This document shows positions 13,726 to 31,254 of a stretch of DNA of 31,254 nucleotides, in pieces; positions within the stretch are counted from its first letter, which is position 1; every line of letters starts with the position of its first letter. A program made the position numbers and the translations under genes. Location of the stretch: positions 1-31,254 of the IMG/VR virus record IMGVR_UViG_3300028388_003043. One strand, given 5' to 3'. The notes under the pieces are model-generated. The model ran no database searches and was not told where the DNA came from. It saw only the letters and a program-made list of their open reading frames with translations. The DNA is from a virus.

Positions 13726-13727
13726 AA

Positions 13728-14240
13728 CTATTTTTTAGTAAATGCCATTCTCAGGCGGTTCATAATCTTATCCTTCAGCTCTCTATTAAAGCCCATAAAC
13801 TGACGTTTAGGCATCTTAAAGTCCACCTTTCGGTTATGGCCTTTAATGGATACCGTTTTGCCCTTCCCCATGAAATTGGGTTTATTGTGTGGCCTTACAT
13901 ATTGCACACCACTTATTTGTTCCCCTTCATTATGCACTTTAGCATAAGGCACCTTTGCGCTTCCAGCTGTAATGGTTACTCGATTAGGCATTACATCCTT
14001 TGACCTAATGCTTCTCTGAAGGTTTGAGGTTTTGGTTAGAATCCTGCCTTTTCCTCTAGTCTTCTTCCGAGCATATTCAGGGCTTAAAGGCTCCCAAGGA
14101 ACACCATTCCATTCTTGCTCTTGAAATCGCTCCTGGTAATATTCTGTAGCAGTCTCCGCAATTACATTCGGGACTTGATTTCGGAAGCGTTCGTCAAAAC
14201 CATCGAAGAAAGCGTTAATTTTACCACTGTTTTTACTCAT
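13728..14240 (-). CDS. Virion morphogenesis protein, Mu gpG-like
   Basis: Protein of 170 residues of the phage virion morphogenesis family (Mu gp31/G). Seen: the WNGVPWEPLSPEYARKK block, GKGRILTKTSNLQRSI, and YAKVHNEGEQ, which match the family core (W-x-P-L-x3-T/Y-x3-K, ILT-x3-L-x2-S, YA-x2-H-x3-G). In Mu this protein is a minor head or head-tail joining component. It overlaps the portal fusion gene by 8 nt. Confidence 0.85.
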   Translation of the reverse strand: MSKNSGKINAFFDGFDERFRNQVPNVIAETATEYYQERFQEQEWNGVPWEPLSPEYARKKTRGKGRILTKTSNLQRSIRSKDVMPNRVTITAGSAKVPYAKVHNEGEQISGVQYVRPHNKPNFMGKGKTVSIKGHNRKVDFKMPKRQFMGFNRELKDKIMNRLRMAFTKK

Positions 14241-16452
14241 CCTTCATCTCTCTTTTGACCCTTTCCATAATCTCAATTACATAAGGCGGCAAACTTTTAA
14301 CGTATTGTTGATTTTCGGCAAACACTACTCCTTCATCCGCTCGGTTTATTCCCCATCCTTGGCTTGTAGTTTTTTCCCATTCTGGTGATTCCAGTAAGGC
14401 ATCTACTTTGGATCTGTCGGCTTCTATCTTAGTGATATCCACTTCTCCAGCTAAACGAGGTACCACATAGCAACGGCAGTTCCAACCATTAGGAGGAAAT
14501 ATTTGTTGCCATCTTGGATCATCAGCTGGTAGAATAATACCGTGAATGTTACGGTGGCTTTTCCTAACATTTTCGTCCTGAAGGGTTTTATATTCCCAAT
14601 AGGGGAAAATGTCTATTTGCCCCATTAATCGCTTATAAGTGGCAGCCGCTTCTCCGGTCAGCTGAGCGGTGTTATATTCAGTTTCTAAATAGGAAACATT
14701 GAATATCTCCATTCTTTGTTTGGCTAGTCTGTAGAACTCCTCAAAGCTAGTAGCTTCTCGAAACAGCTCATTAAGTAGTAAGGTCATGGCTTGAGTTTTA
14801 CCAGCCGAAAAGCGAAAGATATTATTCTCAAAAGCCTTGATCAGTTCCGGATCATCAAAGCCATAGTTAATTCCAAGCTCAGCCAGCTTTATCTCTTCGC
14901 TTTGATTAGTACCCCTTTTAAAACCCTTTAAAAGAGTTTCTAAAGTGTATTTAAAAAGGCTTTCTTCAAAAGAAAGATTACCTGAAGCATCAAAGGCTTT
15001 ATTGATCAGCTCCTCATTATTGAATTCTTCTTCAACTTCACTCAGCTTGATCATAAGGCGATCGCCACAGCAGCTCGTTGGCTGTTTTGCCCCGACTCTC
15101 TTTGGAGTCAGGGCTAGGCCAAAAAAAGATTTGAAGCGATTAAATAAGCTTAGCTCTTCTGACTGAGTAGGCTCTTTGTTCTGGTCTTTTTTTCGCTTCG
15201 GTTTATCATCCGTTGACTTGTTGTAGGATGTATCTTCTTTTTGAGTTGGATTCCCTGATTTTAATTGATCATAATTATCAGGCTTTGGGATTCCATAAGT
15301 TTCATATAGGAAATCATCATCCATTGGTAGCTTCATTTCAGTAGCTAAGCCTTTGTGGATTTCAAACATTTCTTTTTTGGTGAGGCTGTCTTCTTCACCA
15401 GCCACAATGAATTTACCGCCTTTGGTGTCAAAACCATGAGCCTTCAGGATTGGAATAAAACGGCTGTTTAATATCCTTCTTGCAAACTTAATATCAGATT
15501 CATGCTTGCGGTCATCCTGCCCTTCATGGGTTTTAGATTGCGCATAACCTGAGCTTTCACTGGCTTCGGTAGTTTCGGTGCTTCCAAGTATCGTTTTACT
15601 GATCTCCTTATTAAGCAGATTAATAAATTTGGTTTGTAGATCACCGTTGGCATTTGCAGATTTATCCAATAACTCCACATTGGTTCCTTCAGGCCTTACA
15701 ATGGCACCGCCTTGTCCTAGTGCATTAATGGCCTCTAAAAGCTTAACTCTCTGTTCATCATTATATCCGTCCCAAGTCGCATCTACTAAAGGGTTTCCGA
15801 ACACCTGGACAAACATGGCGTAATCTCCAAGCCCACCTCTTTTCAATACCTGATAAGGCGCAACCTTTAGCAATAAGCCTAGATCATTGGTTCTGCCTAC
15901 TTCCATGATGGTTTTAGCATAGATCCCCTTTCTGATATTCAAGCCATCATCCGAATAGGCATCATTGGAAATGATCCCTAACTCAGGACGCATATTTAAT
16001 TTAGGTACTGTCCAGAGGCTCATTTCTTGCTCTCCTTCAGAGTTGGTGAAAAACTTAGGCTCTAACATTGAATACCCCCAAAAGCGTGAATTGATAATCT
16101 CTGAAAGCATATCATCAAAGCCGATGGTGTCAATTAGCTCATTAATAGCATCAACCTCAGCTCCTTCCTTATCCACGAATTTCCAACCTGCTGAAGTAAC
16201 CGCATCCATTCTTTTTTGAGTAACGGATTCCACATGTCCATCCAATACCACATCCGCATACAAATCATAAAGCAGCACTCTTCTGGGTATTCTGCTTTCG
16301 GCATGTTGCAGGGCATTTCTCCAAGTTTGAATGTCTTGATTAGTACGATGAAAAGGCCTTACATCAATTTGATTATTAATGATGCTAACTGGAGCTCCTC
16401 CCGGCTGAAGCTTCGGATTCTTAGTGTTTAGTATTTTCTTATTTCTAGTCAT
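14233..16452 (-). CDS. Portal (DUF935) fused to Mu F-like head protein
   Basis: A protein of 739 residues that combines two separate Mu genes. Residues about 30-400 are a DUF935/gp29-type portal, the dodecameric DNA channel (DLYADVVLDGHVESVTQKR, then FGNPLVDATWDGYNDEQRVKL and a NLLNKEISKTILGSTETTE helix). A Lys/Asp/Gln-rich linker (about 405-440) follows. Residues about 460-739 are the gp30/protein F head morphogenesis domain, ending with the family motif H637-G, PADDPRW, PPNGWNCRCY (C659-R-C661). The linker holds no stop, so portal and head protein are made in equal amounts unless cleaved. The gene lies between gp36-like and gpG-like genes. Confidence 0.88.
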   Translation of the reverse strand: MTRNKKILNTKNPKLQPGGAPVSIINNQIDVRPFHRTNQDIQTWRNALQHAESRIPRRVLLYDLYADVVLDGHVESVTQKRMDAVTSAGWKFVDKEGAEVDAINELIDTIGFDDMLSEIINSRFWGYSMLEPKFFTNSEGEQEMSLWTVPKLNMRPELGIISNDAYSDDGLNIRKGIYAKTIMEVGRTNDLGLLLKVAPYQVLKRGGLGDYAMFVQVFGNPLVDATWDGYNDEQRVKLLEAINALGQGGAIVRPEGTNVELLDKSANANGDLQTKFINLLNKEISKTILGSTETTEASESSGYAQSKTHEGQDDRKHESDIKFARRILNSRFIPILKAHGFDTKGGKFIVAGEEDSLTKKEMFEIHKGLATEMKLPMDDDFLYETYGIPKPDNYDQLKSGNPTQKEDTSYNKSTDDKPKRKKDQNKEPTQSEELSLFNRFKSFFGLALTPKRVGAKQPTSCCGDRLMIKLSEVEEEFNNEELINKAFDASGNLSFEESLFKYTLETLLKGFKRGTNQSEEIKLAELGINYGFDDPELIKAFENNIFRFSAGKTQAMTLLLNELFREATSFEEFYRLAKQRMEIFNVSYLETEYNTAQLTGEAAATYKRLMGQIDIFPYWEYKTLQDENVRKSHRNIHGIILPADDPRWQQIFPPNGWNCRCYVVPRLAGEVDITKIEADRSKVDALLESPEWEKTTSQGWGINRADEGVVFAENQQYVKSLPPYVIEIMERVKREMKDE

Positions 16453-16455
16453 GGC

Positions 16456-16866
16456 TTAGTATTGAGTAGTTCTTCTAGTTGCAGAGGTAATTTTCCAGCT
16501 GTCGCTGATGCCTTCAGGCTCCGTTTTGAATGGCCAGCCTTCAGGAACAAATTCTCCTTTTTGAATTTGCTGGAGTCGCTTGATGGCTTTCTCGTATCGC
16601 TCAGCCTGAAATTCAATATTCATATTTGGGTTAGCCAAATTGATAAAATGCCAAACCGCTATATCCTTAATGAAGGTTAATAGCATTTCGTCTCTATCAT
16701 CTCCTATGGCAGAGAACAGCGTTTCTAAATCATACTTACTCAAGAATCCTTTAGCTTCTTTTTCAGCTGTTTTAATTGCCTTCTCTAGTAGCAAGCCACC
16801 ATCACGTTCAATAGCGTTGATGATTTCGGTGTACATGTGGGTGTTAAAATCTGCTCTTAATAACAT
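16456..16866 (-). CDS. Mu gp36-like protein (DUF1320)
   Basis: Protein of 136 residues with the DUF1320 arrangement: DFNTHMYTEII start, AEKEAKGFLSKYDLETLF helix, IKDIAVWHFINLANP and a final ERYEKAIKRLQQIQKGEF amphipathic helix. These proteins act as head-tail adaptors near the neck. In Mu gp36 follows the capsid gene, but here it lies between the large terminase and portal genes, which differs from Mu order. Gaps to neighbours are 3 nt on both sides. Confidence 0.75.
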   Translation of the reverse strand: MLLRADFNTHMYTEIINAIERDGGLLLEKAIKTAEKEAKGFLSKYDLETLFSAIGDDRDEMLLTFIKDIAVWHFINLANPNMNIEFQAERYEKAIKRLQQIQKGEFVPEGWPFKTEPEGISDSWKITSATRRTTQY

Positions 16867-16869
16867 AGC

Positions 16870-18375
16870 TTAAAATCGTTTAGGGTTGTTTCTAAAGGGT
16901 TTCATAGTTTGTACTTTGCTGGTGTCTGATACCGTTTTAAAGTTAATTTTGAATACTGCTCCTTCTACCGCATCGGGTGCATCATCATGTGCACGGCTGG
17001 ACGGTGATAGTGCTGTAAATTGCGCTTCTGTCGCCTTCATGTGTTCACTCGGCTTTAGGTCTTCATTAAACCACAGCTTTTCATTTCTATTCAATGGCTC
17101 AAGTAGAGATTCAATCCTGAAGAATTTATCAGGCTTAGTTCGATCATCGGCTTTTAGTGGTAAGGTGATCCCATGTCGTTCATTTGCTTTCTTGAGCTCC
17201 AGCTTCAATGTATCATCAATGGAAGGCCACTCGATGAAGAAAAATACAGGTACTACACCATTGACCATTTTCATAATCATGTATTGCCAGTCCAGCATTT
17301 CAGCAGTGCTGGTCTGCGCTGCAAACATTTTTAATACATGATATTCATCCTTCCATTTTCCGACTAATGCAGTGGCCTTAAAGTCATTCTTTTTTCCTCC
17401 TTTATAAGAGGGGTCAGTGTAGGCAATCAGGAATTTATATTCCCGTAATGGTCTTATTTTTTTATAATGAAGCTTTTCAAATACCTTACCTTTTTTAATC
17501 GGATTATTAAAATACTCTCCCTGTTGGGCTGCATAGCTTAATTTACTTAAGGCTCTGTCGATCTGCTCCTCACTGTTTTTCTGAGGCCATGATGATTTCC
17601 CGTCTTTGTTTCGGATGTTCACCACCTCATAGTGATCAGCCATTTCCATAGCTTTCAGCATACAGCAATGTTCGGCTATAATGTTACCGCAGAATATCAC
17701 CAGTAAAGGATTAGAAATTGACCTAGTAGCTAAGAAGGCTCTTTCAATCCAGTCCCATTTCTTATCTACGGTGTCAGGATTTCGGCAATCCTCATCAGTA
17801 TCAAAGTCATCAATTAAAAGCACATCAGGTCGAACTGCTTCGTTCCTGGTACCACGAGGAGATTGCCCTGCACCAATAGCCCTAAAGGCTACGCCCTTTC
17901 GGGTAATGAATTCACTATCTGACCAGTTGCCGTATTTCTCTTGAATGCCGTAATCATGAATAATTCGGTCATTCTTTTCGAGCAAAGTCTTGTAAGGCTT
18001 CAACAATCGGACGGCATTATCAAAGCTGTTGGAGGTAAGGACTACGTTTCGCTTTTTACCAGTCAGAATCAATTTAAGAACCTCCATCATGGTTCTACCT
18101 GATTTAGCTAGTTCCCTTGACCAAGGTCGGGCTTCATACCACTCAGGATTGTTCATTACCAGCTTAGTACTTCTTTTATGAAAGTCGGCTGGCTCAGAAG
18201 TGTAATAAGCAGGAAAGTAGTATTTGAACCACTCCTCATCGTTTGCCTCAAGCCTCTTCATTCGCTTGAGTTGCTCGGTTTTGTCCTCGGTGTAATCTAC
18301 AGGGCTGTCCCTGTTCATGTTCACTACGAACTCATCCCAATCAAACAAGGCTCTTTTATCCGCTGCTTTTATCAT
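16870..18375 (-). CDS. Large terminase subunit (Mu gp28-like)
   Basis: Packaging motor of 501 residues. The ATPase half shows a degenerate Walker A-like RELAKSGRTM (87-96) and Walker B VLLIDDFDTDED (185-196). The nuclease half has an RNase H-like first Asp in IAYTDPSYKGGKKNDF (D321), an acidic FFFIEWP (E382) and the last acidic group HDDAPDAVEGA (463-473). In Mu-type headful packaging it cuts host DNA near the phage ends. It overlaps the small terminase gene by 4 nt. Confidence 0.93.
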   Translation of the reverse strand: MIKAADKRALFDWDEFVVNMNRDSPVDYTEDKTEQLKRMKRLEANDEEWFKYYFPAYYTSEPADFHKRSTKLVMNNPEWYEARPWSRELAKSGRTMMEVLKLILTGKKRNVVLTSNSFDNAVRLLKPYKTLLEKNDRIIHDYGIQEKYGNWSDSEFITRKGVAFRAIGAGQSPRGTRNEAVRPDVLLIDDFDTDEDCRNPDTVDKKWDWIERAFLATRSISNPLLVIFCGNIIAEHCCMLKAMEMADHYEVVNIRNKDGKSSWPQKNSEEQIDRALSKLSYAAQQGEYFNNPIKKGKVFEKLHYKKIRPLREYKFLIAYTDPSYKGGKKNDFKATALVGKWKDEYHVLKMFAAQTSTAEMLDWQYMIMKMVNGVVPVFFFIEWPSIDDTLKLELKKANERHGITLPLKADDRTKPDKFFRIESLLEPLNRNEKLWFNEDLKPSEHMKATEAQFTALSPSSRAHDDAPDAVEGAVFKINFKTVSDTSKVQTMKPFRNNPKRF

Positions 18376-18842
18376 TTGATTTGCGCTTTAATAAAGTGGT
18401 CAGCAAGGCCTGTAATTTCCTTGGCTTTCTCATAATCCTGATGCCTTACAAATACCAGGAAGTTTTTCATGACTTCCATGATTTCAGCCAGAGCCGTTTC
18501 AGTCTCCATGTCCTTAATTGCCTTTGCTATTTTACTAAGGGTGTCGGCTTCTTTTGAGTTGGCAAAACGCTCGCCTTTTTCCCTGTCCATAATCTTATCA
18601 TTCAACTCTGTGAGCTGCATGTACATTCTGCGCATTTCAGCCTCTTTGGTGATGAGTGTGCTTTCTCTCATCCTGTCCCAAAGTCTATCATCGGCATTTA
18701 CCCATTTATTGATAGTTTGAGGAGATACGCCTACTCTTTCTGCCAGCTCTTTTTGTACCGTTACGCCTTGCACGGTATAGAGCAATTTGGCGTGTTCATG
18801 CTTCTGTTGCATGCTTTGTGGAGTGTTTTTTTGCTTTGCCAT
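18372..18842 (-). CDS. Small terminase subunit
   Basis: Protein of 156 residues that begins the leftward head operon. An HTH (VTVQKELAERVGVSPQTINKWVN, about 27-50) is the DNA-recognition domain, followed by coiled-coil oligomerisation helices (LTELNDKIMDREKGERF...). The HTH and the adjacent large-terminase gene (4-nt overlap) support the call. AAAGGAGG lies 12 nt before its ATG. Confidence 0.85.
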   Translation of the reverse strand: MAKQKNTPQSMQQKHEHAKLLYTVQGVTVQKELAERVGVSPQTINKWVNADDRLWDRMRESTLITKEAEMRRMYMQLTELNDKIMDREKGERFANSKEADTLSKIAKAIKDMETETALAEIMEVMKNFLVFVRHQDYEKAKEITGLADHFIKAQIK

Positions 18843-19016: not shown

Positions 19017-20033
19017 ATGAAGAAAAGCACTAAGCGATTTGTAATTAGTACCGAAACTAAGAATAACCTTGGCTTCAAGGTTCGCACTTCGGGTATTGAT
19101 TTGAAGCAATTCAATAAGAACCCACTATTACTTTGGATGCATAAGCGACCTAAAGGCGAGCGTAAAGATGAAATCTTACCGCTTGGATTTTGGGAAGACT
19201 TACAAGTGAATGCAGATGGTCAATTGACAGGAGTTCCTTCATTTGATGAGACGGACGACTTTGCTATGAGCATCTACAACAAAGTAGAAAATGGGACACT
19301 CAAAATGGCAAGTGCTGGACTTAGCCCACTAGACTGGAAAGAAGAGAATGGCGAGAATTGGCTTGATAAGTCGGTATTGCTTGAAGCTTCTTTATGCGAT
19401 ATAGGTTCAAATCCTGATGCGCTTGCAGTGGTGCTTTATGATGAAAATGAGCAAGTGATCACCCTCTCTCAAGACTACCTAACGAAAGTATTACCACCAA
19501 AAAATTTAGATATGAAAAAAATAGAGTTAAGCCCGTCAGTCCTGCCGCTATTGAAGCTTGCGGACGGGGCTACTCCTCAGGAGGCTGAGGAAGCAATCCA
19601 AAGAATCGTAACGCTTGCTAATAAGCAGAAAACGCAAATCAACACGCTTCAAACCGAGAAGGAAGAGGAAGTGAAGTTGCGTGAAAAAGCGGAGGGCGAT
19701 TTAAAGAAGTTGAAGGAAGACCAGGAAGCAGCCCAAAAGACTGCCTTACTGGACAAAGCCATCAAGGAAGAGCGCAAAATCACAGAAGACCAGCGAGAGG
19801 ACTTTGTGCAATTGAGCTATGAGCAGGCAAAGAGCATTTTAGATAAAATGACTCCTAACCCAACTGCTCAATCTCAATTTGACCAAGGCAGTGAAAAGAC
19901 TAAGGATAAGTATGTGAAATTAAGCTGGAAAGAGCTTGACAAAAAAGGAATGCTTATCGCCTTGAAAAACGAGGATTTCGGACTTTTCAAAGCCAAGTTT
20001 CAGGAAGAATTCGGAAAGGAATATCAGGGATAG
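19017..20033 (+). CDS. Prohead protease fused to scaffold (Mu gpI-like)
   Basis: Protein of 338 residues, first of the rightward late operon. Residues 1-150 are a herpesvirus/HK97-type prohead protease: the catalytic His is probably H42 in LLLWMHKRP and the Ser S99 in LKMASAGLSP, with the family end LLEASLCDIGSNPDALAV. Residues about 166-338 are a scaffold with a long coiled coil (KQKTQINTLQTEKEEEVKL...). An in-frame ATG at 19512 begins a possible separate scaffold. The palindrome at 20049-20081 and the capsid gene follow. Confidence 0.85.
   Translation: MKKSTKRFVISTETKNNLGFKVRTSGIDLKQFNKNPLLLWMHKRPKGERKDEILPLGFWEDLQVNADGQLTGVPSFDETDDFAMSIYNKVENGTLKMASAGLSPLDWKEENGENWLDKSVLLEASLCDIGSNPDALAVVLYDENEQVITLSQDYLTKVLPPKNLDMKKIELSPSVLPLLKLADGATPQEAEEAIQRIVTLANKQKTQINTLQTEKEEEVKLREKAEGDLKKLKEDQEAAQKTALLDKAIKEERKITEDQREDFVQLSYEQAKSILDKMTPNPTAQSQFDQGSEKTKDKYVKLSWKELDKKGMLIALKNEDFGLFKAKFQEEFGKEYQG
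19512..20033 (+). CDS. Nested scaffold protein (Mu gpZ-like) from internal start
   Basis: ATG 19512 (Met166 of the protease) lies at the junction between protease and scaffold, after the A-rich stretch ACCACCAAAAAATTTAGAT, the start context used elsewhere in this phage. It would give 173 residues beginning MKKIELSPSVLPLL. Mu makes its scaffold Z from an internal start of gene I in the same way. The fit is by position; translation is not shown. Confidence 0.5.
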   Translation: MKKIELSPSVLPLLKLADGATPQEAEEAIQRIVTLANKQKTQINTLQTEKEEEVKLREKAEGDLKKLKEDQEAAQKTALLDKAIKEERKITEDQREDFVQLSYEQAKSILDKMTPNPTAQSQFDQGSEKTKDKYVKLSWKELDKKGMLIALKNEDFGLFKAKFQEEFGKEYQG

Positions 20034-20048
20034 TCCTACCGAGCAATC

Positions 20049-20081
20049 AACTTTTCCAAAGTTTCAAACTTTGGAAAAGTT
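20049..20081. repeat. 33-bp perfect palindrome before the capsid gene
   Basis: AACTTTTCCAAAGTTT, one C, then AAACTTTGGAAAAGTT is a perfect 16-bp inverted repeat with a 1-nt centre. There is no T run after it. It may be an RNA-processing or stability hairpin that raises capsid expression, or a host-type palindromic repeat. Confidence 0.85.
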
Positions 20082-20113
20082 CAAAATCAATCAGTAATAC
20101 AAAAACAGAAATC

Positions 20114-21250
20114 ATGAAAAAGATTAAATATCAAAGTTTACTATACAACATAGTCATGGCTCTCCTGATCGGGATTGTAGCCAGCACCACCATAGGCGCA
20201 AACCTTTATGCAGTTGCAGGAGGTACATTTGCCCTTGGTTTCGTAGTCTCTTTTATCCGACCGATTATCGCACCACATTGGCAAAATGGCGTGTTGATGA
20301 TGGCCGTTCAAAAGGAGATTTGGCAGAATCACATTGAAGAAGAAATCTTTAAGGATAATGGATTCTTAAAAAGGGCTTATCAAGTAGAAAAAGAGCATAT
20401 TAATGGTAAAGCTGTTCATATCCCTCAATCAGGTGGTTCAGGAAATGTAGTAAAGAATAGATCTTCCTTTCCTGCATCAGTAAGAGATAGAACAGATACT
20501 GATGTTATCTATTTGATAGATTCTTACACTACTGATCCAGTTAGAATTCCTAATGTAGATAATTATCAATTGTCTTATGATAAGCGAAATTCAGTTTTAG
20601 GTGAAGACAGGGATAAATTAGTTCAGCAAGTAGCTGAATGGATGTTAGTTAACTGGATTACTACTCCAGCCTATGGAGCTTATTCAGCTTCATCGATACC
20701 ACAGTCTAGAATATTAAACACAACTGGTGAAGCTGTAGCTGCTGGAGGTGATGGTCAAACAGGTTTGAGAAAAGCGACCACTTTAACTGACCTTCAGTCC
20801 ATGAGAACCAAATTCAAAAGAGAAAACAAATGGTTTGAAGGCAAAATGCACGCTTTACTGACCCCTTCTATGGAAGCAGAATTATTTCCACCTGACAAGG
20901 ATTACATCGCCACTTATATGAATGGTGTAAGCAAAGAGGAAAAAGAAGCGGGTGTAATTGCCAAAGTTCAAGGATGGAAAATATGGAGTCGTTCTTCAGT
21001 ATTCTTATTAGATGATACTGACGCATTTAAAACACCAGGTGAAGTAGCAGCTGCTACCGATAATGATGCAGCTTTATTCTGGTATGAAAAAAGTGTTGAA
21101 TATGCAATGGGTGATATTGACTTCTTCGAAGATTTAGGAGCACCAGCATATTACGGTGATGTTTTCTCTATGGAAATATTCACAGGCGGTAGATCACGAA
21201 GAAATGACTACAAAGGGATTGGTATTTTACGTCAAGTAACTACTGTCTAA
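20114..21250 (+). CDS. Major capsid protein with hydrophobic N-terminal extension
   Basis: Protein of 378 residues in the Mu gpT position. Residues about 62-378 look like a capsid core (MMAVQKEIWQNHIEEEIFKD, IDSYTTDPVRIPNVDNYQ, ALLTPSMEAELFP, IAKVQGWKIWSRS, FWYEKSVEYAMGD). The first 55 residues hold two hydrophobic helices (LLYNIVMALLIGIVASTTIG and LYAVAGGTFALGFVVSFI) unlike ordinary capsids. ATGs at 20297 and 20300 (Met62 and Met63) fall at the boundary, so a shorter form is possible, or the prefix is cut off by the protease upstream. Capsid identity comes mainly from position after protease and scaffold. Confidence 0.8.
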   Translation: MKKIKYQSLLYNIVMALLIGIVASTTIGANLYAVAGGTFALGFVVSFIRPIIAPHWQNGVLMMAVQKEIWQNHIEEEIFKDNGFLKRAYQVEKEHINGKAVHIPQSGGSGNVVKNRSSFPASVRDRTDTDVIYLIDSYTTDPVRIPNVDNYQLSYDKRNSVLGEDRDKLVQQVAEWMLVNWITTPAYGAYSASSIPQSRILNTTGEAVAAGGDGQTGLRKATTLTDLQSMRTKFKRENKWFEGKMHALLTPSMEAELFPPDKDYIATYMNGVSKEEKEAGVIAKVQGWKIWSRSSVFLLDDTDAFKTPGEVAAATDNDAALFWYEKSVEYAMGDIDFFEDLGAPAYYGDVFSMEIFTGGRSRRNDYKGIGILRQVTTV

Positions 21251-21256
21251 TCTCCG

Positions 21257-21769
21257 ATGAACTACTTCATCAAAATATTGAATTCATTTGGATATGAGAA
21301 GCTGTCGGATTTTACCGATAGCCTCTTTCCTTCCTTCAAATATGTTAGCATGACTATTTTCACTTTTACGCTTAGCGGCCTATCAGCATCTATATTCAGA
21401 ATTTTTGGCATTGATGCTTTGGCGTTTTTAGCGTTGGCATTAGTCTTCATATTTGAACTCGCTACAGGGCTTGCAAGGGCAAGAAAAGCAAAGGAGCAAT
21501 TCAGTAGCATGAAGTTTAGTCGATTTAGTTTTAAGCTGGCTTATTACCTCATCATCATAGCGATTAGCTACTTAATGCAAAGGAGCTTTGAGAATAACGG
21601 TAATACATTGGCTTCTGACATATTCCATTGGATGCATGTATTCTTTGTCGTGCAAATTGTGCTGGAAAACATAGTCAGCATTTCAGAAAATATAGCAGTG
21701 ATTACAGGCAAGCCAAAGGCACACTGGATCACTAAACTACAAGAAAAAATTAACAGCTATTTCAAATGA
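21257..21769 (+). CDS. Holin
   Basis: Membrane protein of 170 residues with about four hydrophobic segments: YVSMTIFTFTLSGLSASIF, IDALAFLALALVFIFELATG, LAYYLIIIAISYLM and HVFFVVQIVLENIV. The basic loop ARARKAKEQFSSMKFSRFSFK between the second and third is typical of the Bacteroidota phage holin family (Phage_holin_4-like). It would form the inner-membrane lesion at lysis. It overlaps the endolysin gene by 4 nt (ATGA). Its place right after the capsid gene is unlike Mu. Confidence 0.75.
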   Translation: MNYFIKILNSFGYEKLSDFTDSLFPSFKYVSMTIFTFTLSGLSASIFRIFGIDALAFLALALVFIFELATGLARARKAKEQFSSMKFSRFSFKLAYYLIIIAISYLMQRSFENNGNTLASDIFHWMHVFFVVQIVLENIVSISENIAVITGKPKAHWITKLQEKINSYFK

Positions 21770-22347
21770 ATTATCAGGAGTTGAAAGCATTATTTGAGGA
21801 GTTAGGTCATGTCTTTTTTGACAAAGGAGCTTATAACCTCAATTTATACGGCATTCGGAATGGTTACGGATCAGTGAATGAGTTTAATGATGTGCTTGGA
21901 GTAGCCTACCGAGATGAGCAAGGCAATGAGATTGTACTCGAGCATAAAGGCACAACCGACCCGGGCAGCTGGTGGCTAAGGAATAGAATGGGGAATCCTA
22001 ACGGGACTTTCATTTTAGCTCCTGGGCAATACAGAGATTGCTGGTCGATTGGCAAGCACAAAGGCTATGAGGCATTAGTGCAAGTCGGCTCGCCTTTCAA
22101 AGGCTGGAGAGACAATGACCAGGACGGACAATTAGACCCTGAAGGGAAATTGTACCGAGATGTAACAGGACTGAATATGCATACTACTTCTTGGCTGAAG
22201 CAAGTCGATAAAGTAGGCGCATACTCGGCAGGCTGTCAGGTAAGGCAGTATACTGAAGCGCACGAACACATTATGAAGCTGTGCAGGAAATCGGCTGATT
22301 TCTACGGAAACAGCTTCTCTTATACTTTAATAGAAAAAAGATGTTGA
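21766..22347 (+). CDS. Putative endolysin with L,D-transpeptidase-like active site
   Basis: Protein of 193 residues. No lysozyme or amidase motif is seen. The centre has GLNMHTTSWLKQVDKVGAYSAGCQVRQ, where H139 and the S-A-G-C157 group fit the His and Ser-x-Gly-Cys of YkuD-type L,D-transpeptidases. A calcium-type DNDQDGQLD loop (117-125) precedes it. There is no signal peptide, so export would need the holin next door. Between holin and spanin candidates, a role in peptidoglycan breakdown is the best inference. It overlaps the spanin gene by 7 nt. Confidence 0.65.
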   Translation: MNYQELKALFEELGHVFFDKGAYNLNLYGIRNGYGSVNEFNDVLGVAYRDEQGNEIVLEHKGTTDPGSWWLRNRMGNPNGTFILAPGQYRDCWSIGKHKGYEALVQVGSPFKGWRDNDQDGQLDPEGKLYRDVTGLNMHTTSWLKQVDKVGAYSAGCQVRQYTEAHEHIMKLCRKSADFYGNSFSYTLIEKRC

Positions 22348-22865
22348 GGCATACTTGTTTAATATACGTGGCAGCGGTCTTAGCAGCCTGCAATCTGGCA
22401 GGCTGCAAATCGACAAAGCAAACGAGCAGTAAGCAGATTGAACGAGAAAGTGTCATTGATTCGGCTTTGCGTATCAATACCAACGAGGTACTAACTACCG
22501 ACTATTTCGATGATGAAATAAGCGGATTTGTACCGATGGATTTCACTCGGCTTCAGGACTTGGATTCGGTAGTGATTCCTGTCAAGAGCAAGGGGGTTGA
22601 AATGGAAATGGTAGTGAAGCCTTCAGGTATAAGTTACCACACTAAAGTCAAGCCAGTGGCTCGCTCCAAATTGCAGAAGCAAGAGGAGCGCACTCAGACT
22701 TCACAAACAAAAGTGAAGGAAGAGATCAAGGAAAAAGAGAAGGTTAAGACGAAGCCTTCAGGTTTCAGGTTCCCCTGGTGGATGTGGGTAGCCTTAATTA
22801 TAGCAGCCATCATTTTGGTACTGCGACTTTTAAAAGTAATTCAAAACCCTTTAAAACTATTTTAA
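22341..22865 (+). CDS. Putative unimolecular spanin (lipoprotein + C-terminal TM)
   Basis: Protein of 174 residues. The N-terminus is a lipoprotein signal with two lipobox-like sites (LAAC17 and LAGC22). A charged periplasmic stretch follows, with a coiled-coil-like Lys/Glu run (KLQKQEERTQTSQTKVKEE). The C-terminus has one strong TM helix (about 146-165, WWMWVALIIAAIILVLRLL). An outer-membrane lipid anchor plus a C-terminal inner-membrane helix is the u-spanin layout (phage T1 gp11). It is the last gene of the lysis cassette. The identification rests on topology alone. Confidence 0.7.
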   Translation: MLRHTCLIYVAAVLAACNLAGCKSTKQTSSKQIERESVIDSALRINTNEVLTTDYFDDEISGFVPMDFTRLQDLDSVVIPVKSKGVEMEMVVKPSGISYHTKVKPVARSKLQKQEERTQTSQTKVKEEIKEKEKVKTKPSGFRFPWWMWVALIIAAIILVLRLLKVIQNPLKLF

Positions 22866-22867
22866 AA

Positions 22868-23452
22868 ATGGGAAATACGAGAGAAGATAAAAAGAGAATC
22901 ATGTTTGCTACACATCGAAATACTGATGTGTTCTATGTGACCTCTAATGATAAATTTTTCTACACCGAGCAAGATGCGGAGTCAGCGGCTCAGCTACTTG
23001 AAGATAAGAAGGTAGATAAATTAGAAAGAGATTCGGTGCCAGCCAATGAAGAGCTGGAGAAAGAGATTGAGGCAAAGAAAGCAGCTGAAAAATCAACTGC
23101 TGAAAATGCTGATGCGCCAAACAACCCTGATGGAAGCCAAGGCGAGGAAGGCGATGATTCATCAAAAGATGATGATCCTTCCAACCCTGAAAAGACTGAA
23201 GGAGCGGACACTGATCAGAAAGATGAGCAGGATGCAGATCAGAGCAATGATCAAAGTGATGATCAGTCAGGAAATGACAAGGATGATCAAGCGGATCAGT
23301 CCGATGTTAAAAGTTTGGACTCATTGAAAGATGAGTATAAAGAACTCACAGGCAAGCCTGCTCATCACACTTGGGATGCGGCAAGGATTGAGGAAAAGAT
23401 AGCAGAGGCGAAAGCTGAAGCATCTGAAGATAAAGGAACTACTAACCAATAA
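22868..23452 (+). CDS. Acidic-linker structural protein, Mu gp35-like
   Basis: Protein of 194 residues from ATG 22868; an upstream in-frame start would lie inside the spanin gene. The N-terminal 60 residues are a small folded part (MFATHRNTDVFYVTSNDKFFYTEQDAE in pieces). The middle (about 75-145) is a low-complexity Asp/Ser/Gln/Glu linker rich in DDQ and DQS. The C-terminus (LKDEYKELTGKPAHHTWDAARIEEKI) matches a short HeH/SAP-like domain found in Mu gp35-type proteins near the capsid gene. In Mu gp35 also follows the capsid gene T. Confidence 0.65.
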   Translation: MGNTREDKKRIMFATHRNTDVFYVTSNDKFFYTEQDAESAAQLLEDKKVDKLERDSVPANEELEKEIEAKKAAEKSTAENADAPNNPDGSQGEEGDDSSKDDDPSNPEKTEGADTDQKDEQDADQSNDQSDDQSGNDKDDQADQSDVKSLDSLKDEYKELTGKPAHHTWDAARIEEKIAEAKAEASEDKGTTNQ

Positions 23453-23462
23453 TTGTTGAATC

Positions 23463-23969
23463 ATGTCAAAAGTAAGTTATGGCCTACAATCGGTCGAAGT
23501 ATCACCAATAGATGAAGTAACAGGATTAGCAACCGCTTGGGAAGATGCTGGGTTGATTTACAGAGATTCCATTACGCTGGATTCAGCCGATGGAGAAAAG
23601 ACGGAGCATTTTGCTGAGTTGGAGCAAGACCCTGTGGAAGTAATACAGGAGAAAGGTTCAAAAACCTTAAATCTTCAATTAATGGACACTTCACCAGCGA
23701 ATCTATTGAAGTATTTGGGTGGAACCATTACGGGCGTTGACCCTAATGAAGAGTGGAATGAGCCAAACGATATCGTGGCTATTGAATTTGCCTGGAGATT
23801 AACCTTTAAAAATGGGCAGAAAATGACCATTTACAGAGGAAAAACCAATGGTAAATATACAGGGGATTTCAATAGAAATGGCATTCAGTTGCTTTCGCTT
23901 ATGATCTCACCACTAAAACCGAAGGTTGATGGTGTTCCTGTTATGGCAATTGGAAATCCAGCAGCATAA
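23463..23969 (+). CDS. Major tail tube protein
   Basis: Beta-rich protein of 168 residues immediately upstream of the chaperone pair and tape measure gene, the conserved position of the tail tube. Seen: a VEVSPIDEVTGLATAWEDAG start, ITLDSADGEKTEHFAELEQDPVEVI, FAWRLTFKNGQKMTIYRGKTNG and a final strand LLSLMISPLKP. No sheath gene is present, so the tail is long and non-contractile. This differs from Mu and resembles B3/D3112-type transposable siphophages. Confidence 0.75.
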   Translation: MSKVSYGLQSVEVSPIDEVTGLATAWEDAGLIYRDSITLDSADGEKTEHFAELEQDPVEVIQEKGSKTLNLQLMDTSPANLLKYLGGTITGVDPNEEWNEPNDIVAIEFAWRLTFKNGQKMTIYRGKTNGKYTGDFNRNGIQLLSLMISPLKPKVDGVPVMAIGNPAA

Positions 23970-23970
23970 C

Positions 23971-24456
23971 ATGAAGGAGAATCCTAACATAGAGCGCTTA
24001 GCCGCTGACCAAATCTTAGATAGAGGCGCACGTATAAAGATGCGAGCGCCTCTTCTTTTACGGCTCATCGGCATTAAGGAAGTGAGTCTAACAGTAAGAG
24101 CTCCTTACGAAGGCACATTGCACCGAGTGGCCAGTTACTATTTGAGTACAGGCTTATCATCAGAGAAATTAGAAGATTTAACTCATGAGCAAGCATTAGC
24201 AATAATGGTCGCACATGGAAAAGCATTAAGAAGAGCTGTGGCTTGTGCCTGGCTTAATGGCTATTGGATGGGTAAGCTCTTCACAAAGCCACTAGCGCAT
24301 TATATGAAATGGCATTGCAAGCCAGTAGAGATCACAACAATTGCAATGCTTATTCTCATATATGGAGGAGCTGCGGATTTTATGAGTACTACCAGATCGG
24401 TGCGTATGATGAAGATTACGACACCGAAGATGGGTCAGGAGAATCAGGGGAGTTAA
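23971..24456 (+). CDS. Tail assembly chaperone G
   Basis: Protein of 161 residues from ATG 23971, 1 nt after the tube gene stop; an earlier ATG at 23926 overlaps the tube gene. Helical, with APLLLRLIGIKEVSLTV, HEQALAIMVAHGKALRRAV and an end ITTIAMLILIYGGAADFM...TRSVRMMKITTPKM. Position between tube and tape measure and an overlapping ORF in the -1 frame mark it as the G part of a G/GT chaperone pair. Confidence 0.75.
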   Translation: MKENPNIERLAADQILDRGARIKMRAPLLLRLIGIKEVSLTVRAPYEGTLHRVASYYLSTGLSSEKLEDLTHEQALAIMVAHGKALRRAVACAWLNGYWMGKLFTKPLAHYMKWHCKPVEITTIAMLILIYGGAADFMSTTRSVRMMKITTPKMGQENQGS

Positions 24457-24656
24457 TTCAAACAGGTTTACATAGCCCCTGGGGAATGCTCTACCAGTTT
24501 GCGAAGGAAACAGGCTGGAGTTATCACGATTTACTTTGGAAAGTAAGTCGCCCAAATTTACTGCTCATGATGGCGGATAGACCGAATTTCAAGAGCACCA
24601 AAAACATGGTTAAGAAAGGAGATCCCTCCGACCTTGCCGCTAAGCTAATGAGTTAA
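24309..24656 (+). CDS. Tail assembly chaperone T extension (frameshift product)
   Basis: This frame (-1 relative to gene G) is open from 24276 to 24656 and is most probably joined to G by a -1 ribosomal frameshift, giving G-T. Its unique part (GLHSPWGMLYQFAKETGWSYHDLLWKVSRPNLLLMMADRP in pieces) resembles the T domains that bind the tape measure. The ATG at 24309 lies deep within G and has no obvious start signals. If the slip is at 24447-24450, the product is 23971-24450 joined to 24450-24656. Confidence 0.65.
   Translation: MALQASRDHNNCNAYSHIWRSCGFYEYYQIGAYDEDYDTEDGSGESGELIQTGLHSPWGMLYQFAKETGWSYHDLLWKVSRPNLLLMMADRPNFKSTKNMVKKGDPSDLAAKLMS
24447..24456 (+). promoter_or_regulatory. Candidate -1 frameshift site before the G stop
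   Basis: CAG GGG AGT TAA ends gene G; the GGGG at 24447-24450 lets the GGG tRNA re-pair one base back, after which GAG TTA ATT continues in the T frame. No canonical XXXYYYZ heptamer was found in the overlap, so the precise site is uncertain. Confidence 0.4.
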
Positions 24657-24660
24657 TTAT

Positions 24661-27600
24661 ATGGAGCCGATTAATGTAGATTTTATTATCAATAATGAGC
24701 AGGTGAAAGCCGATTCACAGAAAGTGAAACAGGATATTACTGGAGTGGATCAGACTGCCGAAAAATCTGCAAAACGTGTAAGTCAAACTGTAAAGCGTGT
24801 GTATGATAACAACGTGAAAGAGGTTGATGAATACACTAAGGCAGTGGCTAGGAGTTCTAAAACTACTGCGGCTATGGGCAACACAGCCGCAGCCACTAAG
24901 CCTAAATTTAACGGCCTACAGAACTCTATTAACCAGTTAAGCCGTGAAGCTCCAGCATTTGCGGTTTCGGCTCAAACGGGTTTCTTAGCCTTGTCTAACA
25001 ATATTCCAATCCTTGCTGATGAAATACAAAGGCTTAAGGTGGAAAATCAGCAGCTTGTTGCTTCAGGTCAAAAGGGAGTACCGATATGGAAACAAATCAC
25101 TAAGTCTTTATTTAGTTTTGGTACAGCTCTTTCTTTAGGGGTAACCTTAATTACTATTTATGGTCGGGAAATTGGAGAGTTTATTGGTCGATTATTTAAA
25201 GGAAAAGGTACTATTGATTCCCTAAAGGAAAGCCAAGAAGCCTTAAACAAAGCCTTTGAAAGTACCGATTATCAGAATGCTATCAAGGATGTACTTTCTC
25301 TTGAGACTAATATAGACCTTGCTAAAAGAGGGATGATTGATGCTAAGGATGTGGTGGAGCAGTACAATGAAAGCCTAGGAAAAGCCACTGGATCAGTCGA
25401 AGACCTGAAGGGAGTAGAGGAGCTAATGATTGCCAACTCTGACAAGTACATTCAAATGATGCTGTATAAGTCAGCGGCTAATATTGCCCTAGATGAAGCG
25501 GCAAAAGAAGCTTATAAAAGTGAGCTTCGTAAAATGGAACTTCAGGAGGAAATAGCAGAGCAAGAGGCGGCATTTGCTAAAGTGGCATCTAGTGCGACCT
25601 CCAGTGATGCGATTATCAATGCACAGCGAGAGAGAGCTAAGAACTTAAGAAAGGCCTACAGTGAATATAATAAAGAAGTTGAACGAGCAGTAGAAGACCG
25701 AAATCAGATATTTAAAAAGCTTCAGGAACGAGCTGCTTCTTTTGGTTTGAATATGTTCCTGGACGATGATGATAAAGCAGGGACAAAAGACAAAGGCGAT
25801 AATGGCTTAAAGGCTCGACAAAGGTTACTCGATAGAATTGCAGCCCTGGACAAAGAGTATGCTCGTAAGCGAATGGATGATGATGAGGCTGAGGTGCAGG
25901 CTTTGCGTGATAAGTTTGCTAAGATTAGAACACTAATTGAGCGATTCAATAAAGCCAATCCTACCATAGCAATCAATATTGATCAGCTGGATGCCATAGG
26001 CGCACAGGCTGAGGCTGATTTGATAGGTAGGCAAGAGCAAGAGGCCTTAGAGAAAATCAGGAAAGAGGCTGAGGCATCTCGTGAAGAATACGAAAAGCAA
26101 TGGGCTAAGCAGCTAGAGGACTTGAAGAGCTATGAAATGAATCGTAATGATATGATAGAAGAGTATCAGAAATTACGTAATAAATTAGTAACTCAGGGCT
26201 ATGATGAAAGAGCAAAAGAACTTGACAGGCAACATCAAGCAGAGCTTGGCGCATTAGATGATGCTCAGTTAAAAAAGCTCCAGTCTTACAAGGATTTATT
26301 TGATGGTATAAATGGGCTAAGCATAAAGGCTGGTAAAGAAATTATTGCAAATGCAAAAGCACTAATTGAAAGCCAGCGCATGAGTGCTGAAGCTAAAGCA
26401 GAAATATTAAAGAAGATTGCTGAAGCTGAAGCCATTATACAAACCACTCAGCTGGATAATATCTATAAAATATCAGAGGCTTTTTTTGAGTTAGGTGCAT
26501 CACTTGAAAACCTTGGCGAGTCGGTCGATTCAGCAGGATTAACACAAGCAGGCGGTGCGCTTTCCGGGCTTGCTTCCAATATGCGGAATATACTGACCGC
26601 CTTTGATGATCAGGCAGGCACAACCGATAAGATCGCAGCTGGGATCAGTTCAATATCTTCTTTAATTACAATGCTCGCTAATGCTTCTCGAGAGCGAAAA
26701 GAAGCCGAGAGAGATTATTATTTGAGTGTAATTGGTTTTCAAAATGATTATAACCTAGCCCTTCAGGATCAGATCAGACTGCAAGGCATGTTGAATGATA
26801 GTGCTTTCTTAACCGACTATGAAGGTAGGATCACTAGTGGAGTAGAGGCTTTGAGAAATGCTAATTCAGAATACCAAAAAGCATTTGCTGACTTAGCTGA
26901 TGCTCAGGTTAAGATTGGGCAGAACGATAAAATTGATTGGGGGAATGTTGGAGCTGGAGCCAGTGCTGGAGCTGGAGCTGGAGCGGCAATTGGTTCAATA
27001 ATTCCTGGACTCGGTACGGCAATCGGAGCTGGTATTGGTGCACTAGTAGGTGGTGCAGTTGGATTGTTTGGCGGCAAAGAGACGGTGGATGAGTTTGGTA
27101 GTTTATTGGCAGAATATCCTGAAATCATAAGTACTTCAGCTGATGGCTTGCAAAGTATCAATCGAGAGTTAGCGCAAAGCTTAATCGCTAATGGAATGGT
27201 GAATGAGGAAACGCAAGCAATACTTGAAAATATTATGGCTTGGGAGGATGCTATTCAAGAAGCTCGAGATCAGATCAGGGAAGTAATATCCGAATTGGCA
27301 GGTGGTTTAGGGGACGACCTTAGAAATTCCTTGGTAGAGGCTTTCAAAGCTGGAGAGGATGCAGCGGTGGCAATGGGTGAAAGTATTGAGAAGGTACTTG
27401 AGAATGTATTATCACAATTGATATTCAATCAAATCTTTAGTTCGGCTTTTGAAGACCTCGAGGCACGTATGGCGGATAGCTTTGATATTGGAGGTGATCA
27501 GGATTGGTTGGATGATTTTGCAGCTTTCTTTAACCAAGCCAGCGGACTGACGGATGACTTCAATCAGGCTTTAACCGATGCGCAAAAAGAGGCTGCTGAT

Positions 27601-27933
27601 TTTGGCTTTGATATTTTTAACCAAGACAGCGAAGGAGCTGAAGGCTTAAAAGGTGCTATCCGCAGGGAAATGACCGAAGAAACGGCCAGCGAATTAACAG
27701 GTCTCTATAGGGCTACATTCGATGTGCAAAAAAGGCACTTGAGGTTAAGTGAAGATTTGTACCGAGTGAATGCGAGTAATATGCGCTTCACCATGAACAT
27801 CATGCAGACGAATGCGCTCATTGAAAGGCATACAGCTAATACAGTGCTAGAGCTTCAGGCGGCAGTCGGCTTTTTAAAGAAAATTAAGGACAATACTAAA
27901 GACCAATCTGGGAGGGATATAGGAGTATCATGA
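24661..27933 (+). CDS. Tail tape measure protein
   Basis: Protein of 1090 residues, the longest gene in the window, starting 4 nt after the T frame. The N-terminus (MEPINVDFIINNEQVKADSQ) and LSREAPAFAVSAQTGFLALS...IPILADEIQRL are typical of Bacteroidota phage tape measures. Long coiled coils fill residues about 185-625. A Gly/Ala-rich hydrophobic stretch (about 760-805, GAGASAGAGAGAAIG onward) may insert in the host membrane at DNA entry. The length would set a tail of the order of 150 nm (inference from about 0.15 nm per residue). It overlaps the next gene by 4 nt. Confidence 0.92.
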   Translation: MEPINVDFIINNEQVKADSQKVKQDITGVDQTAEKSAKRVSQTVKRVYDNNVKEVDEYTKAVARSSKTTAAMGNTAAATKPKFNGLQNSINQLSREAPAFAVSAQTGFLALSNNIPILADEIQRLKVENQQLVASGQKGVPIWKQITKSLFSFGTALSLGVTLITIYGREIGEFIGRLFKGKGTIDSLKESQEALNKAFESTDYQNAIKDVLSLETNIDLAKRGMIDAKDVVEQYNESLGKATGSVEDLKGVEELMIANSDKYIQMMLYKSAANIALDEAAKEAYKSELRKMELQEEIAEQEAAFAKVASSATSSDAIINAQRERAKNLRKAYSEYNKEVERAVEDRNQIFKKLQERAASFGLNMFLDDDDKAGTKDKGDNGLKARQRLLDRIAALDKEYARKRMDDDEAEVQALRDKFAKIRTLIERFNKANPTIAINIDQLDAIGAQAEADLIGRQEQEALEKIRKEAEASREEYEKQWAKQLEDLKSYEMNRNDMIEEYQKLRNKLVTQGYDERAKELDRQHQAELGALDDAQLKKLQSYKDLFDGINGLSIKAGKEIIANAKALIESQRMSAEAKAEILKKIAEAEAIIQTTQLDNIYKISEAFFELGASLENLGESVDSAGLTQAGGALSGLASNMRNILTAFDDQAGTTDKIAAGISSISSLITMLANASRERKEAERDYYLSVIGFQNDYNLALQDQIRLQGMLNDSAFLTDYEGRITSGVEALRNANSEYQKAFADLADAQVKIGQNDKIDWGNVGAGASAGAGAGAAIGSIIPGLGTAIGAGIGALVGGAVGLFGGKETVDEFGSLLAEYPEIISTSADGLQSINRELAQSLIANGMVNEETQAILENIMAWEDAIQEARDQIREVISELAGGLGDDLRNSLVEAFKAGEDAAVAMGESIEKVLENVLSQLIFNQIFSSAFEDLEARMADSFDIGGDQDWLDDFAAFFNQASGLTDDFNQALTDAQKEAADFGFDIFNQDSEGAEGLKGAIRREMTEETASELTGLYRATFDVQKRHLRLSEDLYRVNASNMRFTMNIMQTNALIERHTANTVLELQAAVGFLKKIKDNTKDQSGRDIGVS

Positions 27934-28346
27934 ATCAATATTCAATCAACGGATCAGATGCATTCACTACTTACGGCATAGTGTTCAAAGAAGGTACTTT
28001 GGAGCAATTAATGACTTTGCCAGAGCGAAAGCCTGGCGTTGAAAATAACTGGCCTGATGAAGATGGAACGGAGCGAGACTTGGAGGTGATCAAATACCAA
28101 AGCCGAGAAGTGGCGGTTAATTGCGTGATGATAGGCAACTCAAAAGCTGATTTTAAAAGCAAATACGAAGCTTTTAAAGCCTTCTTAAAAGATGCTGGCT
28201 ATTTCTTTCTATTGAATCAAGAGTTTCAGATTCAATGGAAATTACTATATGATGGCATGGAGGATTATGTGCAGGATGATTTGCAAACTGCCAGCTTCAC
28301 ACTTAACCTAATTGATGATTTTCCACTTGAAGAATTTCCAATATGA
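27930..28346 (+). CDS. Distal tail (Dit-like) protein
   Basis: Protein of 138 residues between the tape measure and the tail hub gene. SINGSDAFTTYGIVFKEGTLEQLMTLPERKPG is a beta-type N-terminus like Dit proteins, and FTLNLIDDFPLEEFPI is the end strand. A distal tail ring role is inferred mainly from position and length; no signature was verified. It overlaps its neighbours by 4 nt each. Confidence 0.6.
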   Translation: MNQYSINGSDAFTTYGIVFKEGTLEQLMTLPERKPGVENNWPDEDGTERDLEVIKYQSREVAVNCVMIGNSKADFKSKYEAFKAFLKDAGYFFLLNQEFQIQWKLLYDGMEDYVQDDLQTASFTLNLIDDFPLEEFPI

Positions 28347-30685
28347 TTATTGAGATAAAAAGAGGATTAGCAACAGTTGCCAGCTTTAGAGCTAATGAGG
28401 ACGTGGTGTTCACTCAAAAGCTGATGGGTGAGCATAAGATCACCGCCACCATTCAAGTAGCGGATGAGATGGACGTTCAAATTGGTGACTATATTGAATA
28501 TAATGGAGATGTTTATATTTTAAATAATGCTCCAGAGGTTACTCGCATGGGTAATCGAATGTTGGAGTATAGCTTTGAGTTTGAGGGAGAGATATACAAG
28601 CTCTACAATAAAATCTTTATGGATGAGGGAGCGGCTGATTTCAGCTATTTCGGTACTCCTGAAGATTACCTCTTATTGTTATTGACCAATATCAATGAAA
28701 TAGATGCAGGCTGGACATTAGGCACGGTGGATGATGTAGAGCCTCGCAATATCACCTTTAATAATCAAAGCTGTAGAGAAGCCTTAAGCCGAATAGCAGA
28801 AGAGTTCGGGCTTGAGTACATTGTAGAAGGCCAGCAAATTAGCATGGTTAGTAAGGTTGGTGAGGATATATTCCTGAATTTGGAATATGGAAAAGGCAAA
28901 GGTCTTTATCAATTGGAGAGATTAAGATTGAATGATAAGGGAGTGATCACTCGCTTATATGCCTTTGGTGGCCGTAAGAATATCGACTTTGATTATAGAG
29001 ATGGAGCGGATAGGCTTCAATTTGCCGCTAATCCATTAGAAAGCAATGTGTCTACTTATGGAGTGGTAGAAGGCTCTATTACCTTTGAGGATATCTTCCC
29101 GAATCGGACAGGCTCAGTTACTGACTTGCCAGCCAGTGGTGATATCTTGAGCATTTTTGACAACACTCTTGATTTCGACATCAACGATCAGTTGTTAGAA
29201 GGAACAGTCGCTAAGATTGTCTTTAAGACTGGAGACCTTGCTGGAAATCAATTTGAGATTACCGCTTATGACCATACCACTAAGAAAATCACCTTTAAGG
29301 AGTTCACAGAAGAGAATGACTATAAGCTTCCTAACGATGTGGTAAAGCCTGCCTTGGGAGATGAATATACCTTGGTGGATATTAAGATGCCACAGACTTA
29401 CATCGATACAGCTGAGGCGGAGCTTCAGGCAAAGGCTCAGGAGTATTTGGATGAGCATGATCACCCGAGGGTTACCTATGCTTTTAACTGTGATGAGATA
29501 TTCTTTAAGCAGAATAATATCAATATCAATATAGGGGATAGAGTCAGTATTATCGACCAGCCTTTAGAAATTAATACTACCCTAAGAATTAGTGAGATAA
29601 GTTTCCCTTTATTGTATCCTAAGCGATTGACTGCCGCTATTTCGGAAGGAGTGGAATATACCACCACAGAGCGAATCATTAGAATTACGGCTAACACTTT
29701 AGAGCAGATCAAAACAGTAAGCCAGACCTCCAATGAGCAGGCAAGATTGAGCCAGCTGAGGCTAAGAGAATTGCAAGGATTGATTTATGATCCTGACGGC
29801 TATTTTGATACTGAGAACATTAAGCCCTCCAGTATAGAGACTATCCATTTGGCGGTAGGTGTGAAGAGCCAGCAGTTTGCGCTAAGTGGAGTGGTATTCT
29901 CACCCAATCAAAATGCCATCCCAGCAAGCTTCGGCTGGACGGGCGGTGAGCTGATACATTACGAGATAGAGGAGAATTTAAGAACATGGCAAATTGCCCA
30001 AGGGAGCATCGGTTCCTTACTGGATGGGAATGCTTATTACATCTTTGCCCGTGTGCCAATAGTCGGCAATCAGGGAGGAATAGTGCTAGACACCGCAGCT
30101 CGTAAAGTTGATCATGAAGCTGGCTTTTATACGCTGCTTATTGGTGTGCTTCATTCGGTAATTGATGGCGTGAGAGGCATATCCCTGACCTATGGTACTA
30201 CTGAAATAAACGGCAAGTTCATCAGGACAGGTACTATCACCTCACAGGATGGTTTAACTTACTTTGACTTAGATAGTGGGGTGATTGGTGGAAAGATTCA
30301 GTTTGAGGCTGGGAGTAGTGGATATCAGAACTTGGCGGATATTCCTGGGGCTAATCCTTACTTTGAGCAGGGGGTGAGGTTGTGGAGTTATTCATCTGTC
30401 GGTGAAAACACTGAGGAAAACCTTATAGACATAATTGTTAACACTGGAAGTTGGGGCGGAAAAGCCTTGCAAATACAAGGCTCTAAAAGTGTTTTTTGGA
30501 AAAATGCCAAGTCTGTCAATACTTCAAATAAGTACAAGGGACGATTCCGAGTCAGGCAAACAATAGACTCTACTGATCCGAATAAAATGAGGGTATATGC
30601 TGGCGTAAGATGTTTAGATAGAGATTATCAAAGCTTAGGTAATAATAAATATTTTGTATGTGAATTTGAGTTAATATCAGTATAA
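28343..30685 (+). CDS. Tail hub/fibre protein, cut by in-frame TAA
   Basis: Protein of 780 residues up to TAA 30683. Residues about 1-400 look like a tail-associated (Tal/hub) domain (FTQKLMGEHKITATIQVADEMDVQIGDYIEYNGD; NQSCREALSRIAEEFGLEYIVEGQQISMV, in pieces). A coiled neck (about 450-475, ANTLEQIKTVSQTSNEQARL) leads to a fibre part. From residue 670 a lectin-like module begins (ANPYFEQGVRLWSYSSVGENT). The stop falls inside that module (FVCEFELISV), and the same frame stays open for 189 codons after it. Either the fibre is shortened, or the stop is read through. Confidence 0.85.
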   Translation: MIIEIKRGLATVASFRANEDVVFTQKLMGEHKITATIQVADEMDVQIGDYIEYNGDVYILNNAPEVTRMGNRMLEYSFEFEGEIYKLYNKIFMDEGAADFSYFGTPEDYLLLLLTNINEIDAGWTLGTVDDVEPRNITFNNQSCREALSRIAEEFGLEYIVEGQQISMVSKVGEDIFLNLEYGKGKGLYQLERLRLNDKGVITRLYAFGGRKNIDFDYRDGADRLQFAANPLESNVSTYGVVEGSITFEDIFPNRTGSVTDLPASGDILSIFDNTLDFDINDQLLEGTVAKIVFKTGDLAGNQFEITAYDHTTKKITFKEFTEENDYKLPNDVVKPALGDEYTLVDIKMPQTYIDTAEAELQAKAQEYLDEHDHPRVTYAFNCDEIFFKQNNININIGDRVSIIDQPLEINTTLRISEISFPLLYPKRLTAAISEGVEYTTTERIIRITANTLEQIKTVSQTSNEQARLSQLRLRELQGLIYDPDGYFDTENIKPSSIETIHLAVGVKSQQFALSGVVFSPNQNAIPASFGWTGGELIHYEIEENLRTWQIAQGSIGSLLDGNAYYIFARVPIVGNQGGIVLDTAARKVDHEAGFYTLLIGVLHSVIDGVRGISLTYGTTEINGKFIRTGTITSQDGLTYFDLDSGVIGGKIQFEAGSSGYQNLADIPGANPYFEQGVRLWSYSSVGENTEENLIDIIVNTGSWGGKALQIQGSKSVFWKNAKSVNTSNKYKGRFRVRQTIDSTDPNKMRVYAGVRCLDRDYQSLGNNKYFVCEFELISV
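30350..30466 (+). repeat. Fibre module repeat, copy 1
   Basis: Encodes NPYFEQGVRLWSYSSVGENT followed by EENLIDIIVNTGSWGGKAL. The same block returns at 31139. This looks like the start of a jelly-roll, carbohydrate-binding-type module (inference). Confidence 0.75.
30683..30685 (+). other. In-frame TAA inside the fibre gene
   Basis: Codons before it read FELISV and after it FEGLISGEG in the same frame. The next stop in this frame is not reached in the window. A single base change (for example AAA to TAA) would explain it. TAA followed by TTT is not a known efficient readthrough context. Confidence 0.85.
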
Positions 30686-30856
30686 TTTGAGGGATTAATA
30701 TCAGGAGAAGGTAGTGCTACAAACCAATTTATTCCTGGTACTAAATATGTAAGGCCAATGTTTATTGTTAATGTAAGTGGTGGAGATGGTACTACCGAAA
30801 TAGACGGTCTAGAATTCTACGATATTACTGAAACAAACCTTTTAGAAAACAGTCTT

Positions 30857-30970
30857 GGAAATTTGGCTTATGAAAATCTAGTTGGTCTCGCAAAGCTAGA
30901 CTCAACAGTCATTGATGGTGGTTATATAAAAACATCCCTTATTGATGTTAATACTTTAATAGTTCAGGGT
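30857..30970 (+). repeat. Fibre repeat A (38 codons)
   Basis: Encodes LAYENLVGLAKLDST followed by VIDGGYIKTSLIDVNTLIVQG. Repeat B is the second copy, 138 bp later. Confidence 0.8.
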
Positions 30971-30994
30971 AATTTAGCTACTCAGGACAATCTG

Positions 30995-31108
30995 GGAGAT
31001 TTAGCTTTTGATGATCTAGTGAGCCTCGCCAAATTAGACAGCACTATTATTCAAGGCGGTTATATAAAGACCAGCTTAATTGATGTCGAAACTTTAATAG
31101 TACAAGGA
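30995..31108 (+). repeat. Fibre repeat B (38 codons)
   Basis: Encodes LAFDDLVSLAKLDST followed by IIQGGYIKTSLIDVETLIVQG, nearly the same residues as repeat A with many synonymous changes in DNA, so the protein sequence is being kept. Confidence 0.8.
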
Positions 31109-31138
31109 GATATTGCTAAAAGAGGTGATTTAAATTTA

Positions 31139-31254
31139 ACTAATCCCTTTTTTGAACTTGGGACTAAATATTGGAGCTATTCATCTTCAGGAGAAAACAC
31201 TGATGAAAACCTGACGGATACAATTGTTAAAATTGGGAGTTGGGGTAGAAATGT
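31139..31254 (+). repeat. Fibre module repeat, copy 2 (cut by window end)
   Basis: Encodes TNPFFELGTKYWSYSSSGEN then TDENLTDTIVKIGSWG, aligned without gaps to copy 1 at 30350. Confidence 0.75.

Follow-up and report, generated by a model that had tools for sequence, protein, structure and literature searches.

Does the in-frame TAA near the end of a phage tail fibre gene mark a real truncation of a formerly longer protein, a stop used to make short and long fibres, or an error in the sequence? The window is the entire virus record of 31,254 bases. The gene, the stop and the frame beyond it are placed as follows.

28343..30685, plus strand: truncated tail hub/fibre gene, 780 aa; N-terminal part matches Prophage_tail (PF06605, E=5.5e-16), with matches to PHROG profiles.
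30683..30685, plus strand: in-frame TAA stop, at the position of an 'ADGWQ'-type hairpin loop in homologues.
30686..31252, plus strand: continuing open frame of 189 codons, with the module remainder, two LAKLDSTIIQGGYIK-type repeats and the start of a second module.
24661-27933: tape-measure gene.
27930-28346: Dit-like gene.

The reading frame starts with ATG at 28343. As judged from the profile matches, it encodes the hub/fibre of the tail in a Mu-like phage fragment. The window further contains genes for a Mu-type transposase (PHROG 310, Mu-transpos_C), an AAA ATPase, an S24-like repressor, a Mu portal/F-like protein and a terminase, as well as head genes. Tail relatives of the Mu-like phage are found in Bacteroidota. 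Hub homologues from bacterial genomes match the first ~650 residues at 34–49% identity, have no internal stop and are mostly 925–1780 aa long; their C-terminal domains differ from those of the window gene. Hub relatives L019–L022 and L024, with differing C-terminal parts, were left out when the stop was judged.

The structural region forms two divergent blocks. Portal, terminase and neck genes are on the minus strand (13279-18842); head and tail genes are on the plus strand (19017-31254). Just 5' of the tape-measure gene, ORFs 23926-24456 and 24309-24656 overlap in different frames. Both are ~60% identical to the hub relative L021, which has the same overlap, and a conserved GGATTTT lies within it at 24375. 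Many tailed phages make a tail-assembly-chaperone pair by programmed -1 frameshift; from its sequence, the ORF pair looks like one of these.

Past the TAA, the frame of the fibre gene contains no stop up to 31252, close to the contig end, which lies 569 bases from the stop and within a repeat. The remaining two forward frames contain 23 and 22 stops over the same stretch. From base composition, the chance that a frame stays open this long is ~1e-7. Codon usage past the stop matches that of the window's genes in this frame only. The sequence-only reading, that an in-frame TAA splits the fibre gene and is followed by protein-like sequence, is borne out by these values. Two pairs of repeats are associated with the downstream frame.

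30849..31118, plus strand: two 132-nt tandem repeats, 72% identical, dN/dS ~0.2.
31140..31251, plus strand: second module copy, start only, cut by the contig end; 74% identical to 30351-30462.

The pair of 132-nt repeats sits wholly 3' of the stop; the pair of module starts straddles it. Codon differences give dN/dS of ~0.18–0.21 for both pairs. Values near 0.2 in the downstream repeats point to protein-level constraint on the regions past the stop until recently; the ratio dates the divergence of the repeats, not the stop.

The stop interrupts a single module.

30344..30838, plus strand: carbohydrate-binding-module-like beta-sandwich module, interrupted by the stop; recognized by sequence homologues and by the fold of an intact homologue.

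Relatives of the module occur in Bacillus phages (38% identity), on a linear Shewanella plasmid (40%), on a Tritonibacter plasmid and on 17 viral contigs. A profile search with the module recovered homologues inside long open frames. In the combined alignment (~20 viral, phage and plasmid records), every homologous module is continuous at the stop point and none has a stop there. The comparison with homologues that the sequence-only reading had proposed thus gave a continuous frame at the site of 30683. Its placement of the stop within one folded module also holds, since homologues align on both flanks and PHROG profiles align consecutively across the stop. The Shewanella plasmid, pSH190041-1 (L025), is a 52-kb record, listed as linear and non-mobilizable; it bears a fibre-like gene of great length, 8,043 bases within the record, that contains the same module, and is possibly a plasmid-prophage.

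One detail was absent from the earlier reading. About five residues, present in nearly all homologues, are missing at the stop. Most homologues carry at this point a hairpin such as (V)ADGWQ(V/L/E)(F/Y)EG with a near-invariant Trp, which is invariant in 14/14 aligned viral modules. The window has ISV, five absent residues, the stop and then FEGLISGEG; the hairpin loop is missing. No close relative of the module was found in viral contigs, in Bacteroidota genomes (395 genomes) or, by DNA, in phage records, and the searches therefore gave no immediate ancestral DNA. A Pfam search with the window's module gave no family, and so no curated CBM sequence family, at E<=0.01. A PDB sequence search gave no match. 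A literature search gave nothing specific.

The AlphaFold model of an intact homologue is a beta-sandwich (pLDDT 81). The closest solved structures to it are 8zdp (Z 11.9; Douge central fibre) and CBM16, CBM4 and CBM22 modules (Z ~10; 2zey, Z 10.4). In this model, the loop missing from the window links strands 103-112 and 119-125, and the truncated product would be without the last three beta-strands of the module. From the fold only, we infer that the module may bind sugar.

An imperfect direct repeat is located at the stop.

30663..30680, plus strand: copy 1, AATTTGAG-TTAATATCAG.
30684..30704, plus strand: copy 2, AATTTGAGGGATTAATATCAG, beginning at the second base of the stop.

Its gapped score is 16. 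Simulation gave 3 peaks of this strength per 900 kb; real sequence from relatives gave 4 over 80 kb, of which three share a single locus. The arrangement is suggestive, not proof, of one slippage or template-switch event that deleted the loop and created the stop. Comparable local repeats, also strong and scoring up to 19, occur at 848-957 and 23268-23313.

The explanation that we consider best, and probable, is a real truncation, recent in evolutionary terms, of this Mu-like phage's tail hub/fibre gene. The frame of the ancestral gene would have run through the module into the distal repeats. Later, ~5 codons would have been lost from the hairpin that joins two of the module's beta-strands, with the stop at the junction. 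A single origin by slippage or template switch is possible, because immediately 5' of the stop there is a near-copy of the sequence that follows it. The encoded hub would be 780 aa long, its last module incomplete and its distal repeats gone. The allele is probably inactive or impaired, as in a decaying prophage or in one member of a population. The marks of a pseudogenised allele, an in-frame stop with coding-like continuation and homologues continuous across the site, were both found. A fresh nonsense mutation, as suggested earlier, is retained in part. Recent disruption of a longer fibre agrees with the continuous homologues and the low downstream dN/dS; a simple, clean one-base nonsense mutation in a normal module does not fully account for the site, because a five-codon hairpin loop is also missing there and a short repeat abuts the stop. 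The short fibre might alter host range, as the sequence-only reading proposed.

A stop introduced in sequencing or assembly close to the contig end, into a frame that is continuous in the real genome, is unlikely, though it is the most credible of the other explanations. The record ends by cutting the second module copy a short distance from the stop, and past the stop the frame is unbroken and under selection, both as expected of an error. Five missing codons are, however, not explained by a single-base error. Exact repeats here reach only 8 and 10 bases, shorter than the usual assembly k-mers, and the two module copies are merely 74% identical, which also argues against misassembly. Less likely again is a hairpin naturally short in this lineage, combined with an independent, ordinary point nonsense mutation. 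In the window's module the hairpin before this one is likewise ~4 residues shorter than in homologues, without damage, and a fold is still predicted for the read-through module (mean pLDDT 84), albeit with guidance from the homologue alignment. Against such a lineage, the lost loop includes the Trp invariant across the aligned viral modules, and loop loss and stop coincide exactly.

The sequence-only reading also raised a stop under regulation, by suppression, read-through or phase variation, that gives short and long fibres; this is very improbable. The open and selected-looking frame past the TAA would suit it; the features of the site do not. With T as the next base, the TAA sits in a strong termination context. 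More of the window's genes end in TAA than in any other stop (16 of the 28 listed), and the codon is not reassigned; an alternative code with TAA as sense gains no support. RNA 3' of the stop folds worse than shuffled sequences (z=+1.2), and an Rfam search gave no match. Promoters, terminators and simple repeats were checked and gave no support for regulation. The site has no homopolymer tract of the kind behind phase variation; the only run is TAATAATAA, ~40 bases upstream of the stop, a trinucleotide run whose length changes would keep the frame. As to an invertible segment, an inverted-repeat scan covering the gene as far as the contig end, 28343-31254, gave only weak arm pairs (14–25 nt, 76–93%), but the gene continues past that end. 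A short fibre would stop in the middle of a fold, and no homologue has a stop at the aligned site, so that the stop is not conserved among relatives. A deliberate low-level read-through point, with minority long fibres and two receptor-binding forms in one virion population, is more improbable still. Restart past the stop was rejected: the in-frame ATG at 30758 is within the same module and would yield no whole domain.

The in-frame stop in a formerly longer fibre gene thus most likely represents an allele inactivated recently; the alternative is an error. The finding is an ordinary one. A recent inactivating allele would be a fibre allele caught soon after disruption, of little importance beyond annotation. 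For annotation, 780 aa is misleading as a fibre length; in relatives the protein is longer. Should the local repeat prove to be the cause, the locus would offer a small example of mutation by slippage or template switch within a receptor-binding module.

Tail-fibre genes truncated by nonsense mutations or indels are a known general kind in prophages and phage variants. The window gene resembles truncated prophage tail-fibre genes in its in-frame cut, its open downstream remnant and the continuous frames of its relatives. It differs in that the stop coincides with the loss of five hairpin residues and with an imperfect local repeat. The modular receptor-binding protein of Bacillus phage vB_BsuS_PJN02 (UNH58399.1) and that of FADO (UNY48883.1) contain the same module, ~38% identical and aligned on both sides of the stop; there it is unbroken, with the loop ADGWQ, and the phage type and host phylum differ from those of the window. 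CBM16, CBM4, CBM22 and the domain of the Mycobacteriophage Douge central fibre gp20 are the best structural matches to the modelled fold, but are only 13–14% identical in sequence.
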